A stretch of 64,000 nucleotides of DNA, taken from assembly GCF_903969135.1 (NCBI RefSeq), contig NZ_LR824569.1, forward strand, positions 372,001 through 436,000, given 5' to 3'. Source of the stretch: Chryseobacterium sp. JV274. GTDB taxonomy: Bacteria > Bacteroidota > Bacteroidia > Flavobacteriales > Weeksellaceae. Shown here one piece after another: positions 16,901 through 38,183 of the stretch. A model generated the notes under the pieces. The model was not told the DNA's origin, did no database searches, and saw only the letters and a list, made by a program, of their open reading frames with translations. Position 1 is the first letter of the stretch, and every line of letters starts with the position of its first letter. Both the position numbers and the translations under genes were made by a program.

Positions 16901-16972
16901 GACTTTGAATTTTAAATTTCAACAATATGGATAATATCATTCAAAGGGTCTGCCAAACAGAAATATTTTATC

Positions 16973-33448: not shown

Positions 33449-33474
33449 TTTTTAAAACATTTATCTATTAATAT

Positions 33475-33508
33475 AAATAGCCGGAAGAATTTCTTCCGGC
33501 TATTTTAT
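33475..33508. terminator. Bidirectional terminator
   Basis: A perfect stem AAATAGCCGGAAGAA/TTCTTCCGGCTATTT serving the glycerophosphodiesterase gene and, on the minus strand, the first barrel gene. Confidence 0.9.
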
Positions 33509-33553
33509 ACGTGCAGATAACTGCACTTAGGGTTAAAAAATTGGTTCTTTTAA

Positions 33554-34267
33554 TTAAAATTTATAGTTCAGGCCTAACTGAAATACTCTGTTGTTGTTTT
33601 CAGCGGCAGGTCTGCTCTTATCAATTTTGGTTAAGCTGTTTACGTATCTTGCACTTACACCGATGTTGGAAGTGATGTCATATCCTAAACCAAGACCCAA
33701 TCCGAAATTGAATTTGTTGATCATATCTTTGTCGATATCCTGAGAGTTTGAACTTGCAGTAGTTGTAGTAATTCCTCCTGTAGTACTTGCTACAGTAGAT
33801 TCTGATTTGTTTTTACCATTAAGGAAATAACTGAATTCAGGTCCTGCTTCAATATAAAACTTGTCAATAGGTCTCATTTGAACCATTAATGGAACTGAAA
33901 TGTAGTTCATTTGTACTCTGCTCTGTACTTTAGTCTTTACATTCGTAACACCATTATCAGTTTCCGTAGAATACATTACATCTTTAGCACCCATTTGGTT
34001 GAATAATACCTCTGGCTGGAAGCTGAATTGTTTTGAAATTGGAATATTAACGAATGCACCTGCATGAAAACCTAGTTGCTGGGTATTGATCCCGAACTTC
34101 TGCTGACTGAAATAAGAAGAGTTTCCTCCTGCTTTAACTCCGAATCTAATGGGTTGAACATCTTTTTTTAGTGGTGATGCATTTACTGTTTTTGTTGCTG
34201 TCTCTGTCTCTTGAGCAAAAGCTAATGTACCAGCAGTTAATGCTAATCCTAAAAATAACTTCTTCAT
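33554..34267 (-). CDS. PorT-like outer-membrane beta-barrel protein (array member 1)
   Basis: 237 residues with a signal peptide (ending AFAQE). The eight-strand barrel family pattern is present: RFGVKAGGNSSYFS, GFHAGAFVNIPISKQFSFQPEVL, YISVPLMVQMRPIDKFYIEAGPEF, GLGLGLGYDITSNIGVSARY, and the outer-membrane terminal Phe of GLNYKF. A Ser/Thr-rich loop (about residues 150-165) is longer than in the neighbours. The function of such barrels is generally unknown. It has its own sigma-54-like promoter (34332-34346) and terminator. Confidence 0.88.
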   Translation of the reverse strand: MKKLFLGLALTAGTLAFAQETETATKTVNASPLKKDVQPIRFGVKAGGNSSYFSQQKFGINTQQLGFHAGAFVNIPISKQFSFQPEVLFNQMGAKDVMYSTETDNGVTNVKTKVQSRVQMNYISVPLMVQMRPIDKFYIEAGPEFSYFLNGKNKSESTVASTTGGITTTTASSNSQDIDKDMINKFNFGLGLGLGYDITSNIGVSARYVNSLTKIDKSRPAAENNNRVFQLGLNYKF

Positions 34268-34331
34268 AATTTTATTTTTTAATTTTACTATTTGTGTGTC
34301 GATGATTTCTCAATCAGACTCCATTTATTTT

Positions 34332-34346
34332 GCAAATTGCTTGCCA
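34332..34346 (-). promoter_or_regulatory. Sigma-54-like -24/-12 promoter of barrel 1
   Basis: The minus strand reads TGGCAAGCAATTTGC, close to the sigma-54 consensus TGGCACG-N4-TTGC with exact GG/GC spacing. The predicted start is about 53 nt upstream of the ATG. Confidence 0.75.
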
Positions 34347-34577
34347 AAGTTGAAAAATGCTTATTTATAGGGCTTTTGAAGGGCTTTTTGGAAAGTTTTT
34401 TTTTAATCATTTATCCCTTTTTGATGAATAAATGTATTGCCAAACTGAATATTTTATGAAAAGAGTTGAAGACTCAGAACGCTTTAATGTAGATAATTGA
34501 AATGATAAATAATTAAAAAGCAGAAGTTGTTTTTTGTAAAAATAACGGGGTATCCAGGCTGTTTTCAAGACCTGAAA

Positions 34578-34606
34578 TAAAATACCGGACCATTTACGGT
34601 CCGGTA
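34578..34606 (-). terminator. Terminator of barrel 2
   Basis: A stem TACCGGACC/GGTCCGGTA with a short loop, preceded on the plus strand by an A-rich run. Confidence 0.8.
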
Positions 34607-34631
34607 TCGATTTTGAAAATAATAAATATCC

Positions 34632-35330
34632 CTATTTAAACTTATAAGCAACCCCAATATGAAGTGCATTATTTCTTACTTTATCATCCTCGTTGTACTT
34701 GTAAACTTCAGTAATACCAGCACTAAACCTTGCGGTCACGCCAAAATTTTTAGTAAAGTAATATCCGGCACCAATACCTAACCCCAGATTAAAACGGTTA
34801 AAAAGGCTTGTTGAAATATTCTTTGAGATATGGTCTGTATGATCAATCGTAATTGAATTTCCAGTGGTCTCAATAGTGGTTAAATCTCCTTTTGTTTTTC
34901 CTCCCAACAGATATCCAAATTCAGGACCTGCTTCTACATACAGCTGAGGCAGAATATTATATTGAACCATTACAGGAAGAGAAAGGTAATTTAATGTTGT
35001 ACTATAATCATAATGCTGTGTTCTTCTGTAATTCCCTGAGCTTGTTCTGTAGTTATAGTTTGATTTTGATCCCAGCTGGCTGAAAAGAAGTTCCGGCTGG
35101 AGGCTGAATTTTTCAGAAACCGGAATATTTGCGAACACTCCTGCATGAAAACCTACTTTCATTTTTTCATTGTTATCATATTCATAACCGTCTCCTCTGG
35201 TAAGCGTAGATCCATTCAAGCCTGCTTTAACACCAAAAGTAACAGGAGAAGAAATTTTTGACTGATTTTTTTCCTGTGCATTTGCGAAAAGGCAGCCTGC
35301 AACTGCCAGTACTACAAAGAGTTTTTTCAT
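34632..35330 (-). CDS. PorT-like outer-membrane beta-barrel protein (array member 2)
   Basis: 232 residues with a signal peptide (ending LFANAQE). Shared barrel segments are TFGVKAGLNGSTLTRG, GFHAGVFANIPVSEKFSLQPELLFS, YLSLPVMVQYNILPQLYVEAGPEFG, GLGIGAGYYFTKNFGVTARF, and the terminal VAYKFK. The second external loop is Tyr/Arg-rich (SNYNYRTSSGNYRRTQHYDY), unlike its paralogues, which suggests a different surface specificity. It is an independent transcription unit with a weaker sigma-54-like element. Confidence 0.88.
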   Translation of the reverse strand: MKKLFVVLAVAGCLFANAQEKNQSKISSPVTFGVKAGLNGSTLTRGDGYEYDNNEKMKVGFHAGVFANIPVSEKFSLQPELLFSQLGSKSNYNYRTSSGNYRRTQHYDYSTTLNYLSLPVMVQYNILPQLYVEAGPEFGYLLGGKTKGDLTTIETTGNSITIDHTDHISKNISTSLFNRFNLGLGIGAGYYFTKNFGVTARFSAGITEVYKYNEDDKVRNNALHIGVAYKFK

Positions 35331-35361
35331 GATTTTAAAGTTTTAATTTTTCATCATCGCG

Positions 35362-35376
35362 ACAAAATATCTGCCA
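35362..35376 (-). promoter_or_regulatory. Weaker sigma-54-like promoter of barrel 2
   Basis: The minus strand reads TGGCAGATATTTTGT. The -24 GG and the spacing are kept, but -12 ends in GT rather than GC. Confidence 0.45.
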
Positions 35377-35407
35377 CAAAAGGGAGAAGTGATAAAAATC
35401 ATGCAAT

Positions 35408-35659
35408 AAGCGAAAAAGTCAGGCTTAAACTAATAAACCTGACTTTTTCTATTGAAATCAAAATGTATCTAATTATTGAGCAAAATACATTTCTGTATCA
35501 TGCTTTGCATTCTATGTGTTAATCCACCCAATGCCGTTCACGTTAAAAGTTTATAATGGTAATAGTTAGATTTGAGCATTGAAATTCAATTGAACCAATA
35601 CCTATTTCATTGTAAAAACGGAATCATAAGTTGGGATTTCCGGAATAGAGTACAATCAC
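35408..35659 (-). ncRNA. Candidate sigma-54-dependent small RNA within the barrel array
   Basis: A promoter-to-terminator unit of about 250 nt with no credible protein. Only frames of 6-13 codons occur. Upstream is TGGCAAGAAATTTGC (35670-35684), as good as the barrel promoters. At its end is a terminator hairpin with stem AAAAAGTCAGG/CCTGACTTTTT (35413-35449). Inside, a further hairpin AAATGTAT/ATACATTT lies close to the terminator. It occupies the slot of a sixth array member. Alternatives are a fully eroded barrel gene or an unexpressed relic. The 5' end is estimated from the promoter only. Confidence 0.5.
35413..35449 (-). terminator. Terminator of the orphan sigma-54 unit
   Basis: An 11-bp stem AAAAAGTCAGG/CCTGACTTTTT with a 15-nt loop, with A/T runs on both sides. 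Confidence 0.75.
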
Positions 35660-35669
35660 TACTCAATAC

Positions 35670-35684
35670 GCAAATTTCTTGCCA
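35670..35684 (-). promoter_or_regulatory. Sigma-54-like promoter without a downstream gene
   Basis: The minus strand reads TGGCAAGAAATTTGC, matching TGGCACG-N4-TTGC with correct spacing. The only thing downstream before a terminator is about 230 nt of non-coding sequence. Confidence 0.65.
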
Positions 35685-35701
35685 AAAAACATCAGTGTAA
35701 T

Positions 35702-35737
35702 AAAAAAGCCGGATTAAATTTAATCCGGCTTTGTATT
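35702..35737 (-). terminator. Terminator of barrel 3
   Basis: A stem AAAGCCGGATTAAA/TTTAATCCGGCTTT, preceded by an A run on the plus strand. Confidence 0.85.
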
Positions 35738-35773
35738 GATTAGAAAGTCTGCTTTTAAAAGCGGCCTAATTTT

Positions 35774-36358
35774 TTAGAATTTATAAGCTAAACCTACCTG
35801 GAATACACCATTTCTGGAAGCATCACCTGGGTTGTTTTTAGGGACATCAGATAATCCTGCAGTATATCTTAGATTCACTCCAATATTTTGTGTGAAATAA
35901 TATCCCGCTCCAAGACCAATTCCGAAATCAAAACTTTTCAAATTGTCTTTAATATCTACAGAGCCACCGTTGCCTTTTCCTTTAGCACTGATAAGGAAAC
36001 CGAATTGAGGACCAGCTTCTACATATAAATTAGGAATAAGGTTGTACTGTAACATTACCGGTACTGCGATATAATCTGCGTTAAGTTTTAGATCACCGTT
36101 ACCTTTATATTTACCGCCCAAACCACTGTATAATACTTCTGGCTGTACAGAGAAGTCTTGTGCTACAGGAATGTTTGCAAAAACACCTCCATAAAATCCA
36201 GCCTTTGAATTTAAGTCACTGTTAGAAATAGTAGAAACGTTAAGACCTGCTTTTACACCAAATCTAACTGGAGAAGATGAAGCAGTAGAAGTTGAAGTCT
36301 TCTGAGCGAAAGTGAAAGTACCTGCTACTAGTGCAAGGCCTAAAAAAATCTTTTTCAT
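35774..36358 (-). CDS. PorT-like outer-membrane beta-barrel protein (array member 3)
   Basis: 194 residues, the shortest member, with a signal peptide (ending TFAQK). Barrel segments are RFGVKAGLNVSTISNSD, GFYGGVFANIPVAQDFSVQPEVL, YIAVPVMLQYNLIPNLYVEAGPQFG, GIGLGAGYYFTQNIGVNLRYTAGLSD, and the terminal LAYKF. It is closest to member 4, sharing the FYGG and TAGLSD wording, which suggests a recent duplication. A sigma-54-like promoter and its own terminator flank it. Confidence 0.88.
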   Translation of the reverse strand: MKKIFLGLALVAGTFTFAQKTSTSTASSSPVRFGVKAGLNVSTISNSDLNSKAGFYGGVFANIPVAQDFSVQPEVLYSGLGGKYKGNGDLKLNADYIAVPVMLQYNLIPNLYVEAGPQFGFLISAKGKGNGGSVDIKDNLKSFDFGIGLGAGYYFTQNIGVNLRYTAGLSDVPKNNPGDASRNGVFQVGLAYKF

Positions 36359-36409
36359 AAGTTTTATATTTTAATAGTTTTTAAGTTTTATTTAACATTT
36401 CATTAAGAA

Positions 36410-36424
36410 TCAAATGGCGTGCCA
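36410..36424 (-). promoter_or_regulatory. Sigma-54-like promoter of barrel 3
   Basis: The minus strand reads TGGCACGCCATTTGA, exact to the consensus through TGGCACG-N4-TTG, with A in place of the last C. Confidence 0.65.
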
Positions 36425-36490
36425 AAGTTAAAACTGGTTGTAAATCCAGTGTTTATACTGTATACTGGAAAAAGTAAATCTTTTTTTTAC

Positions 36491-36521
36491 ATAAAAAAGC
36501 CGGATTAAAAATTAATCCGGC
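36491..36521 (-). terminator. Terminator of barrel 4
   Basis: A stem GCCGGATTA/TAATCCGGC with an A run before it on the plus strand. Confidence 0.8.
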
Positions 36522-36565
36522 CCCACTTTAATTATTAAAACTTAACGAGAAAAGCTAAACAAGCT

Positions 36566-37189
36566 TTAGAATTTGTAATTTACTCCTACCTGGAATACTC
36601 CGTTTCTTACAGATCCTGATCTGCCATACCCATAAAGATATCTCTGTTGTTTTGCATTCACAATATCAGATAACCCTGCAGTATATCTCACATTTACACC
36701 AATATTTTTGGTAATATTATAACCAGCTCCTAATCCGATTCCGAAATCGAAACCCTTGGTTGCATTTTTAAGTTGTAAACTTCCGACATCATCCTTTTGT
36801 TCTGCCCTCATAAGGAAACTAAATTGAGGTCCAGCTTCTACATAAAAATTAGGAAGTGCTTTATACTGAAACATTACAGGAACGGAAATGTATTCTAAAT
36901 TAAGTTTTGAATTTCTGCCTCCTTTTTCTTTTGCCCCAACAGCGCTATACAATACTTCCGGCTGGATAGCAAAATCTTTTGCGACAGGAATATTCACAAA
37001 AAAGCCACCATAAAATCCTGCTTTTGATTTCATATCCATATTAGAAAGACTGGAAACATTAAGTCCCGCTTTCAAACCGAATTTGATTTTAGAAGAAGAT
37101 GTGGATGGAGTGGCAGCATCAGTTGAAGTGTTCTGCGCAAAAACGAAAGTACCTGCGATAAGTGCCAGGCCTAGAAAAATCTTTTTCAT
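36566..37189 (-). CDS. PorT-like outer-membrane beta-barrel protein (array member 4)
   Basis: 207 residues with a signal peptide (ending VFAQN) and a Ser/Thr-rich N-terminal linker. Shared segments are KFGLKAGLNVSSLSNMD, GFYGGFFVNIPVAKDFAIQPEVL, YISVPVMFQYKALPNFYVEAGPQFS, GIGLGAGYNITKNIGVNVRY, and the terminal GVNYKF. It differs from member 3 mainly in loops: one is basic (KEKGGRNSK) and another is Arg/Tyr-rich (KQQRYLYGYGRSG). Its sigma-54-like element is the weakest of the five. Confidence 0.88.
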   Translation of the reverse strand: MKKIFLGLALIAGTFVFAQNTSTDAATPSTSSSKIKFGLKAGLNVSSLSNMDMKSKAGFYGGFFVNIPVAKDFAIQPEVLYSAVGAKEKGGRNSKLNLEYISVPVMFQYKALPNFYVEAGPQFSFLMRAEQKDDVGSLQLKNATKGFDFGIGLGAGYNITKNIGVNVRYTAGLSDIVNAKQQRYLYGYGRSGSVRNGVFQVGVNYKF

Positions 37190-37229
37190 AGATTAGTTTT
37201 ATTTTAAGTTGTTTAACGCTCGGAAAGCA

Positions 37230-37244
37230 ACAAACAATATGCCG
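37230..37244 (-). promoter_or_regulatory. Degenerate sigma-54-like element of barrel 4
   Basis: The minus strand reads CGGCATATTGTTTGT. Spacing and the -24 GGC are kept, but several consensus bases and the -12 C are lost. Confidence 0.3.
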
Positions 37245-37349
37245 TGAACCCCCTTCAGTAAAGACTTTATCATATTTTTAACTAATTGAAAAATCAATAG
37301 TTTGGGATATATGTTTAATGTTTTATCAAAGGATCAATGCTTTACCATA

Positions 37350-37387
37350 AAAAAAAGACCAGATTAAAAAATTAATCTGATCTTTTC
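37350..37387 (-). terminator. Terminator of barrel 5
   Basis: An imperfect stem AAAAGACCAGATT/AATCTGATCTTTT with a long A run on the plus strand side. Confidence 0.75.
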
Positions 37388-37422
37388 TATTGAATATAAA
37401 ATTTGTTTGTGAATGTGTAAGC

Positions 37423-38058
37423 TTATTTGAATTTATAAGCTAATCCTACCTGGAATAGGTTGTTTCTTGTAGCATCAGATCCACTAGGTCTGTTTTTCGC
37501 TACATCAGTTAAACCAGCAACGTATCTTGCTGTAAGCCCTAAGTTCGGAGTGAAATAATATCCGGCACCAAGACCAATACCAAAGTTGAATGTATTTAAA
37601 TTGTCTTTGTAATTATCTGTGGTATTTGACTGTCCGTTTGATTCATTTTTGAACTTGTTTTTAGCACTTACCATGAAACCGAATTCTGGTCCTGCTTCCA
37701 CATAAAGGTCGGGAATCAGATTGTACTGGAACATTACCGGTACTGTAATATAATCTAATTTAGTTGAAGCTGAAAACTTGGTTCCTCCTATAGTATAATC
37801 TGATTTATTACCATATTGTGAGTATTGAACCTCTGGTTGAACGCTGAATGAAGCTGCCAATGGAATATTGGCAAATACACCTGCATTGAATCCTATTTTA
37901 GATTTCTGATCATCAAGTCCACTGTCTTTTGAAAGTGAAGATACGTTCATTCCTCCTTTCACCCCAAATGTTACTGGATTAGAAGATGTGTTTCCTGTCT
38001 GTTGAGCGAATGCGAATGTTCCTGCAGTTAACGCTAATCCTAAAATTAACTTTTTCAT
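37423..38058 (-). CDS. PorT-like outer-membrane beta-barrel protein (array member 5)
   Basis: 211 residues with a signal peptide (ending AFAQQ). Barrel segments are TFGVKGGMNVSSLSKDSG, GFNAGVFANIPLAASFSVQPEVQ, YITVPVMFQYNLIPDLYVEAGPEFG, GIGLGAGYYFTPNLGLTARYVAGLTD, and the terminal LAYKFK. Loops are rich in Asn, Lys and Ser. It is the first member in transcription order along the minus strand, but each gene has its own promoter and terminator, so the array is not an operon. Confidence 0.88.
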   Translation of the reverse strand: MKKLILGLALTAGTFAFAQQTGNTSSNPVTFGVKGGMNVSSLSKDSGLDDQKSKIGFNAGVFANIPLAASFSVQPEVQYSQYGNKSDYTIGGTKFSASTKLDYITVPVMFQYNLIPDLYVEAGPEFGFMVSAKNKFKNESNGQSNTTDNYKDNLNTFNFGIGLGAGYYFTPNLGLTARYVAGLTDVAKNRPSGSDATRNNLFQVGLAYKFK

Positions 38059-38142
38059 AACTTTAATTTTTTAATTTTACTCTTTCTTAATTTTAAATTT
38101 TACTACTTGTTCAACATTTTTCAGTTGAACGCAGAGTATCTT

Positions 38143-38157
38143 TCAAATTGCTTGCCA
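38143..38157 (-). promoter_or_regulatory. Sigma-54-like promoter of barrel 5
   Basis: The minus strand reads TGGCAAGCAATTTGA, nearly identical to the barrel-1 element, with -12 ending in GA. It lies 85 bp before the ATG. Confidence 0.65.
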
Positions 38158-38183
38158 AAAATCTTTTTTATGAGTAAAATCAA

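Follow-up and report, generated by a model that had tools for sequence, protein, structure and literature searches.

A tandem array of outer-membrane barrel genes behind putative sigma-54 promoters in Chryseobacterium, with a candidate non-coding RNA in its midst

In the stretch of the Chryseobacterium sp. JV274 genome analysed here (the window, 64,000 nucleotides (nt)), five open reading frames (ORFs) of 194-237 amino acids (aa) for small outer-membrane barrels, g1 to g5, lie head to tail on the minus strand, each behind an element of the -24/-12 type. The sequence case that these elements are sigma-54 promoters is strong, and very probably they are. In the best reading, the array would belong to a sigma-54 regulon for the envelope and protein quality control that includes a barrel multiplied in Chryseobacterium. 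A sixth element, between g3 and g4, has no ORF behind it; it probably heads a decayed barrel gene that is kept as a candidate non-coding RNA. The genes and their elements are:

37423..38058, minus strand: g1, 211-aa outer-membrane barrel, PF13568 113 bits
38143..38157, minus strand: g1 element TGGCAAGCAATTTGA (16-base form 38143..38158, TTGGCAAGCAATTTGA), 85 nt before the ATG
36566..37189, minus strand: g2, 207-aa barrel, PF13568 107.5 bits
37230..37244, minus strand: g2 element CGGCATATTGTTTGT
35774..36358, minus strand: g3, 194-aa barrel, PF13568 108.7 bits
36410..36424, minus strand: g3 element TGGCACGCCATTTGA (16-base form 36410..36425, TTGGCACGCCATTTGA)
34632..35330, minus strand: g4, 232-aa barrel, PF13568 113.9 bits
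35362..35376, minus strand: g4 element TGGCAGATATTTTGT (16-base form 35362..35377, GTGGCAGATATTTTGT)
33554..34267, minus strand: g5, 237-aa barrel, PF13568 94.1 bits
34332..34346, minus strand: g5 element TGGCAAGCAATTTGC (16-base form 34332..34347, TTGGCAAGCAATTTGC)

The original prediction, made from the sequence of the window, had placed elements of the type TGGCA-N6-TTG(C/A/T) upstream of all five genes, and there they are present. Taken by itself, the raw pattern is near chance in the window (TGGCAN6TTGC with one mismatch: 22 matches against 14.6 +/- 4.2 in shuffled sequences, with 4 of 100 shuffles reaching 22), and the case is therefore made by comparison. Within the genus and its neighbour, the relatives used were the best 80 of 128 loci from a scan of genome contigs of Chryseobacterium and Kaistella. 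Together with the window they contain 268 barrel starts. After removal of five (four of L104, a frameshifted assembly, and one of L039, where g5 is truncated), 263 upstream regions remained, of which the window contributes five and 79 loci the other 258. GGC[AG]-N5-TTTG occurs within 190 nt in 239 of them and never in the reversed text: 79/81 for g1, 13/13 for g2, 42/51 for g3, 41/53 for g4 and 64/65 for g5. Other spacings from 0 to 12 between GGC[AG] and TTTG are seen in 0-1 regions each, except N9 with 11. The longer TGGC[AG]-N5-TTTG is found in the last 150 nt of 220 of the 263 regions, not at all at the remaining spacings from 0 to 12, and once at spacing 13. The g2 element, which had been called poor, thus keeps both its GGC and its TTTG in all 13 g2 regions. 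Among 182 distinct element strings, the sequence is T-rich just before the GG, and the second position after GGC[A/G] is G in 126; the invariant GG and final TTG are there by construction, the strings having been picked by them. The commonest distances from element to ATG are 30-89 nt in the five groups and 141-143 nt in four Kaistella loci.

The element reaches beyond the genus. With g1 as query, 38 of 393 genomes of the order were searched, 26 from the same family and 12 from another; 33 had a match, and 30 loci were returned. TGGC[AG]-N6-TTG precedes the g1 homologue in 21/25 same-family loci and 12/16 genera (22/25 loci when counted from the start of the match, 0 in the reversed text); some of these loci may overlap with the Kaistella of the genus-level set. 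The element lies 38-168 nt from the ATG in 20 of the 21 loci and 269 nt away in one, L324; among the misses, L332 has a doubtful start codon, and the matches in L320 and L334 have CTTG or ATTG in place of TTTG.

Within the host genome, a single contig of 5.23 Mb, the stricter forms of the element concentrate on the array. TGGC[AG]N5TTTG[ACT] has seven matches on both strands of the 64 kb, five of which are on the coding strand in the region from g1 to g5; these five are g1, g3, g4, g5 and the sixth element at 35670, g2 being missed by the pattern. YTGGCRN5TTTG has 47 matches genome-wide, four of them in the 4.6-kb array, where 0.019 are expected (P about 5e-9, uncorrected for the choice of this stretch by its matches). 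The exact form TTTGGCAN5TTTG has 13 matches, four in the array; 10/13 lie outside ORFs of at least 110 aa (P 1e-6, the expectation being 15% of bases in a 200-kb sample), as do 6/9 of those outside the array (P 8e-4). Among these, the match in L143 is covered by an 82-aa ORF, which makes it doubtful; without it the counts are 9/13 (P 2e-5) and 5/9 (P 0.006). The genome has 16 PF13568 genes, and exactly the five of the array have GGC[AG]-N5-TTTG within 260 nt upstream; the search at other barrel genes that the original prediction had proposed thus gave the strict element at 0/11. With the looser TGGC[AG]-N6-TTG, g2 drops out of the 16 and one gene outside the array, L128, enters (174 nt upstream).

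Could a housekeeping sigma factor act here instead, at TAnnTTTG promoters whose TTTG is the conserved one, TTTGGCA being the site of another regulator? The housekeeping -7 box of flavobacteria does end in TTTG, according to the promoter description in PMC9723704. A box of this kind, TAACTTTG, overlaps the -24 box of g3 in the window, and the g3 genes of L088-L090 have TAAATTTG at the place of the element and no TTTGGCA. TAACTTTG is the sole TAnnTTTG within 260 nt of the five starts, in keeping with the earlier statement that no good box of this type is present; TAnnTTTG stands 28-65 nt before the ATG in 3/11 PF13568 genes outside the array. A T in the TA position before the conserved TTTG is found in 2/182 strings, the GGC keeps its fixed distance in the 239 upstream regions, and the two together form the sigma-54 consensus, which is common to grpE as well. 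A housekeeping promoter is accordingly very unlikely.

A second conserved site lies close to two of the elements:

35390..35401, no strand assigned: palindrome TGATNNNNATCA, of the form TGAY-N4-RTCA, just upstream of the g4 element

TGAY-N4-RTCA resembles what we take to be a Crp/Fnr box. It is found at most 60 nt upstream of the GG in 38/41 g4 and 46/79 g1 regions (0 in the reversed text), with its centre 19-20 nt before the GG in 38 g4 and 42 g1 regions, and in 2/119 regions of g2, g3 and g5 together; the array of the window has it before g4 only, and not before g1. Its position directly upstream of the g4 and g1 elements would suit poised or sequestering sigma-54 sites that repress another promoter, and a roadblock use of sigma-54 occurs in other bacteria. 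The distances between element and ATG, within the genus as well as in the family, suit a leader, and make this view barely credible.

Sigma-54 control of the array is thus well supported, on sequence grounds: the distance between the -24 and -12 boxes is conserved between paralogues, species and genera, none of the other 11 PF13568 genes has the strict element, grpE carries it, and the genome encodes RpoN and three strong enhancer-binding proteins. Several observations weigh against it. The strict element is missing from 24/263 upstream regions, and related regions are not independent of each other. The -12 base is loose in the 182 strings (C 81, A 68, T 29, G 4); in sigma-54 promoters it is usually C. 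Genome-wide, TTTGGCAN5TTTG with one mismatch (254 vs 210 in the reversed text) and YTGGCRN5TTTG (47 vs 37) are hardly enriched, and the matches of the latter outside the array lie outside ORFs in 10/43 cases (P 0.12); raw genome-wide counts were rejected as an argument, being too weak. In 5/5 loci from another family of the order, the nearest barrel lacks the element. An upstream activator site shared by the five genes was not observed; the conserved palindrome occurs almost exclusively at g1 and g4. The strict element was not found before the kdp operon, whose promoter had been tried as a positive control.

The machinery for sigma-54 transcription is in place. A genome without rpoN, named in the original prediction as a possible disproof, is not what is found: the host has one rpoN, with activator-interacting, core-binding and DNA-binding domains all present, and its ARRTIAKYRE, which we take to be the RpoN box, is intact. 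The gene was present in 48/48 genomes searched and in 386/393 genomes of the order. Loss of the activator or of rpoN as a natural experiment was considered and rejected, given this near-universal presence and the Kaistella elements 141-143 nt from the ATG. PF00158 has eight matches above the cut-off in the host, three strong and five of 25-37 bits. The strong ones are: (i) a receiver-AAA protein without HTH_8 and with GSFTGA; (ii) a receiver-AAA protein with a helix-turn-helix (HTH), whose gene adjoins kdpA; (iii) an AAA-HTH protein encoded behind a miaB-like gene (miaB by eye). In the genome of L084, two strong enhancer-binding proteins are found, whose lengths fit the HTH-less and miaB-linked kinds; this locus has elements at g1, g3 and g5, and the kdp-linked activator therefore seems not to be needed. 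The activator would then be either the HTH-less or the miaB-linked protein; a missing HTH would fit the absence of a common upstream site. As a separate observation, the sequence ATGGCATGTAATTTGT (L163 9251, minus strand) lies in the gap that precedes a polysaccharide-deacetylase-like gene (scores under the curated cut-offs); the gene for the HTH-less enhancer-binding protein is two genes away.

The element that links the array to a known regulon stands 29 nt before grpE (PF01025) in the host, an exact match outside the array. In eight other chosen genomes the exact element precedes a grpE-like ORF (by sequence likeness) in 7/8 and barrels in 8/8. In Flavobacterium psychrophilum, a -24/-12 motif is reported at mapped transcription starts of grpE-dnaJ, groES-groEL, dnaK, lon, htpG, clpB and exported proteins; the regulon of sigma-54 type comprises protein quality control, envelope stress and gliding, and promoter mutagenesis confirmed that the motif contributes to transcription of a gliding operon (PMC9723704). 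As described there, this SM4 regulon resembles the situation in the host, with one sigma-54, three PF00158 proteins and the motif before grpE-dnaJ, and it also covers further chaperones, exported proteins and a putative regulatory RNA; among the promoters selected for Table 2 of that paper (PMC9723704) there is no array of paralogous PF13568 barrels, unlike in the host. Predicted class-wise regulons give the grpE cluster, shared with the host, and TonB for Flavobacteriia (PMC12316311); the main text of that paper contains neither 'barrel' nor 'COG3637'. Among the literature matches listed (titles and abstract starts, with few subscription journals), none describes a barrel array, or an RNA within such an array, under the control of sigma-54. 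The suggestion that such an array is undescribed in flavobacteria stands, among these matches, as regards the array itself; as regards the kind of control it does not, because sigma-54-type control of exported and envelope-stress genes in flavobacteria is already published (PMC9723704). The array would thus add to a regulon already known and would not represent a new kind of control. It would bring a multiplied group of surface barrels into the little-studied flavobacterial sigma-54 regulon, under promoter elements that are kept across a bacterial family and common to the chaperone gene grpE.

The inducing signal may be envelope or protein-folding stress, given that the element is also that of grpE and that protein quality control and envelope stress are the fields of the flavobacterial regulon already published. 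These elements suggest the following mechanism: Each small outer-membrane barrel would form an independent transcription unit. Upon envelope or protein-folding stress, the HTH-less receiver-AAA or the miaB-linked AAA-HTH protein would activate sigma-54 RNA polymerase, which would start each barrel gene at its own -24/-12 promoter, TTTGGC[A/G]-N5-TTTG; each unit would end at its own terminator, and transcription from the sixth promoter would yield a non-coding RNA derived from a barrel gene since lost.

The terminators that this scheme calls for are recognizable behind all five genes, as had been proposed, each as a stem-loop with a T-rich tail (five RNA folds, z -4.2 to -6.7); a simple terminator scan finds three of the five:

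37354..37385, minus strand: g1 terminator, RNA fold -15.2 kcal/mol, z -6.1, T run
36496..36524, minus strand: g2 terminator, terminator scan and RNA fold
35705..35732, minus strand: g3 terminator, terminator scan and RNA fold
34581..34608, minus strand: g4 terminator, terminator scan and RNA fold
33471..33510, minus strand: g5 terminator, common to the convergent gene, RNA fold -22 kcal/mol, z -6.7

The sixth element heads a unit of its own, between the g3 terminator and g4:

35670..35685, minus strand: orphan -24/-12 element TTGGCAAGAAATTTGC, no ORF behind it
35413..35658, minus strand: predicted non-coding transcript of about 246 nt, its start placed by the position of the -12 box
35413..35448, minus strand: terminator of the orphan unit, preceded by the conserved block ATTTTGATTTCAATAGAAA; the 3' block is present in both length classes

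In the comparison set, the next barrel ORF is over 150 nt away from 47 elements; without two of them (a second one in L039 and a g4-type element in L053), 45 units are obtained, from 44 loci and the window, and in each a like terminator ends 131-288 nt from the start of the element. In the short length class, the predicted transcript would measure about 105-115 nt. Among 79 loci (L104 excluded), the unit is present in 44, 40 of them with a g4 ORF and four without; three loci have g4 without the unit, and 32 have neither. In one of the three, L040, the 3' block is still there, which may point to an altered unit. Averaged over pairs, identity in the 16-base element is 0.94, in part by construction (units were found by TTGGC[AG]-N5-TTTG); the last 60 nt have 0.87 and the body has 0.28. 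For comparison, the 44 loci give 0.64 at fourfold-degenerate sites of g1 and 0.99 in the 16-base g1 element. The unit has what is expected of a regulatory small RNA, namely a promoter-like element and a terminator of its own and no conserved ORF; ORFs of at least 25 aa are found in 5/45 units. In a consensus fold of 16 units, each pair of the terminator stem is present in 15-16 of the 16, and there is little covariation elsewhere. No barrel remnant was detected in the units by tblastn (best E 0.64), and no Rfam family exceeded its gathering score on the array. A crude duplex screen of three patches against 199 translation starts placed no barrel gene among the six best, and no target emerged.

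Most simply, the unit would descend from a barrel gene whose coding part disappeared while its promoter and 3' end were retained. Eleven loci that lack the unit have this promoter core in front of a g3 ORF, which it would drive; in two of them, L081 and L082, the 3' flank of that g3 has the same TTGATTTCAATAGA block and terminator, and L080 and L107 have nearly the same. The g3 genes of L084, L098 and L113 have other promoters, and the block follows them as well. These relations would also be expected of a decaying pseudogene without function, a view that we regard as unlikely: promoter and 3' end are better conserved than the fourfold sites of g1, whereas the body has diverged far beyond them. 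The unit might alternatively be an insulator or attenuator leader of g4 that makes no RNA of its own, as g4 is the next barrel ORF in 40/44 loci and a strong terminator closes the unit. The four loci that keep the unit and in which no g4 ORF was found (L047, L048, L053 and L071) speak against this, as does g4 of the window, which has its own element past the orphan terminator; a leader thus appears rather unlikely. The case for the unit is entirely one from conservation. It is conceivable, and we propose it tentatively, that a former barrel gene now gives rise to a sigma-54-dependent non-coding RNA whose promoter and 3' end are under selection in 44/79 loci while the coding part is gone, and that this RNA would be made together with the barrels under envelope stress and tune outer-membrane protein synthesis, as a Bacteroidota analogue of the proteobacterial small RNAs that control the outer membrane. 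In proteobacteria, sigma-E controls small RNAs that regulate the outer membrane, and sigma-54 controls the Qrr RNAs. The likeness, if the unit is transcribed, would be that of a stress sigma factor directing a short RNA beside outer-membrane protein genes; unlike those RNAs, the unit matches no Rfam family over the cut-off. It would be a candidate for a sigma-54-driven small RNA linked to the outer membrane in the phylum, and would illustrate an evolutionary route to such an RNA from a coding gene.

All five genes score 94-114 bits with PF13568, far above the Pfam cut-off of 27, and the five head-to-tail outer-membrane barrel genes of the original prediction are thereby confirmed. An AlphaFold2 model of g1, the one protein modelled, was built from 30 aligned sequences and has an N-terminal helix followed by eight long strands (mean pLDDT 82.8). 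Ail, OmpA, NspA and OmpX are among its eight best Foldseek matches in the PDB; g1 is alike in fold to these eight-stranded barrels (TM by target about 0.6-0.66, best of each) and differs from them in sequence (identity 15-18%); function is not transferable. The label 'PorT-like' found no support: an assignment of g1 to PorT/SprT of type IX secretion was rejected, with 20.2 bits against a cut-off of 125 for NCBIfam NF052311 (run with g1 alone). The closest named records of the array are from Chryseobacterium, and its flanks are a glycerophosphodiester-phosphodiesterase-like and an aroB-like gene (labels by eye). Across L037-L116, one to six barrel ORFs of at least 100 aa lie beside the g1 match; the array is therefore in flux.

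Elements outside the array also precede ORFs of other kinds. In the window, TTGGCAGACCCTTTGA (16941-16956, minus strand) lies 41 nt before a 60-aa ORF (MDKKGKTNKK...) without a Pfam match, and a similar short ORF follows an exact element in L184, L191, L197, L212, L234 and L245, one Kaistella among them. In L168 (2182-3027; C1 of the host genome, about 4.248 Mb), an exact element stands 77 nt before a 281-aa ORF, and a like ORF follows an exact element in three of the eight other genomes (L209, L217 and L252); this ORF is TonB-like by eye and was not counted as TonB, having no Pfam or NCBIfam match. In L142 (C1:4042934 of the host genome), the exact element TTTGGCAATGTTTTTG is followed after 13 nt by an ORF of 256 aa whose start is signal-like, and this combination of element and ORF recurs in several of the eight other genomes.

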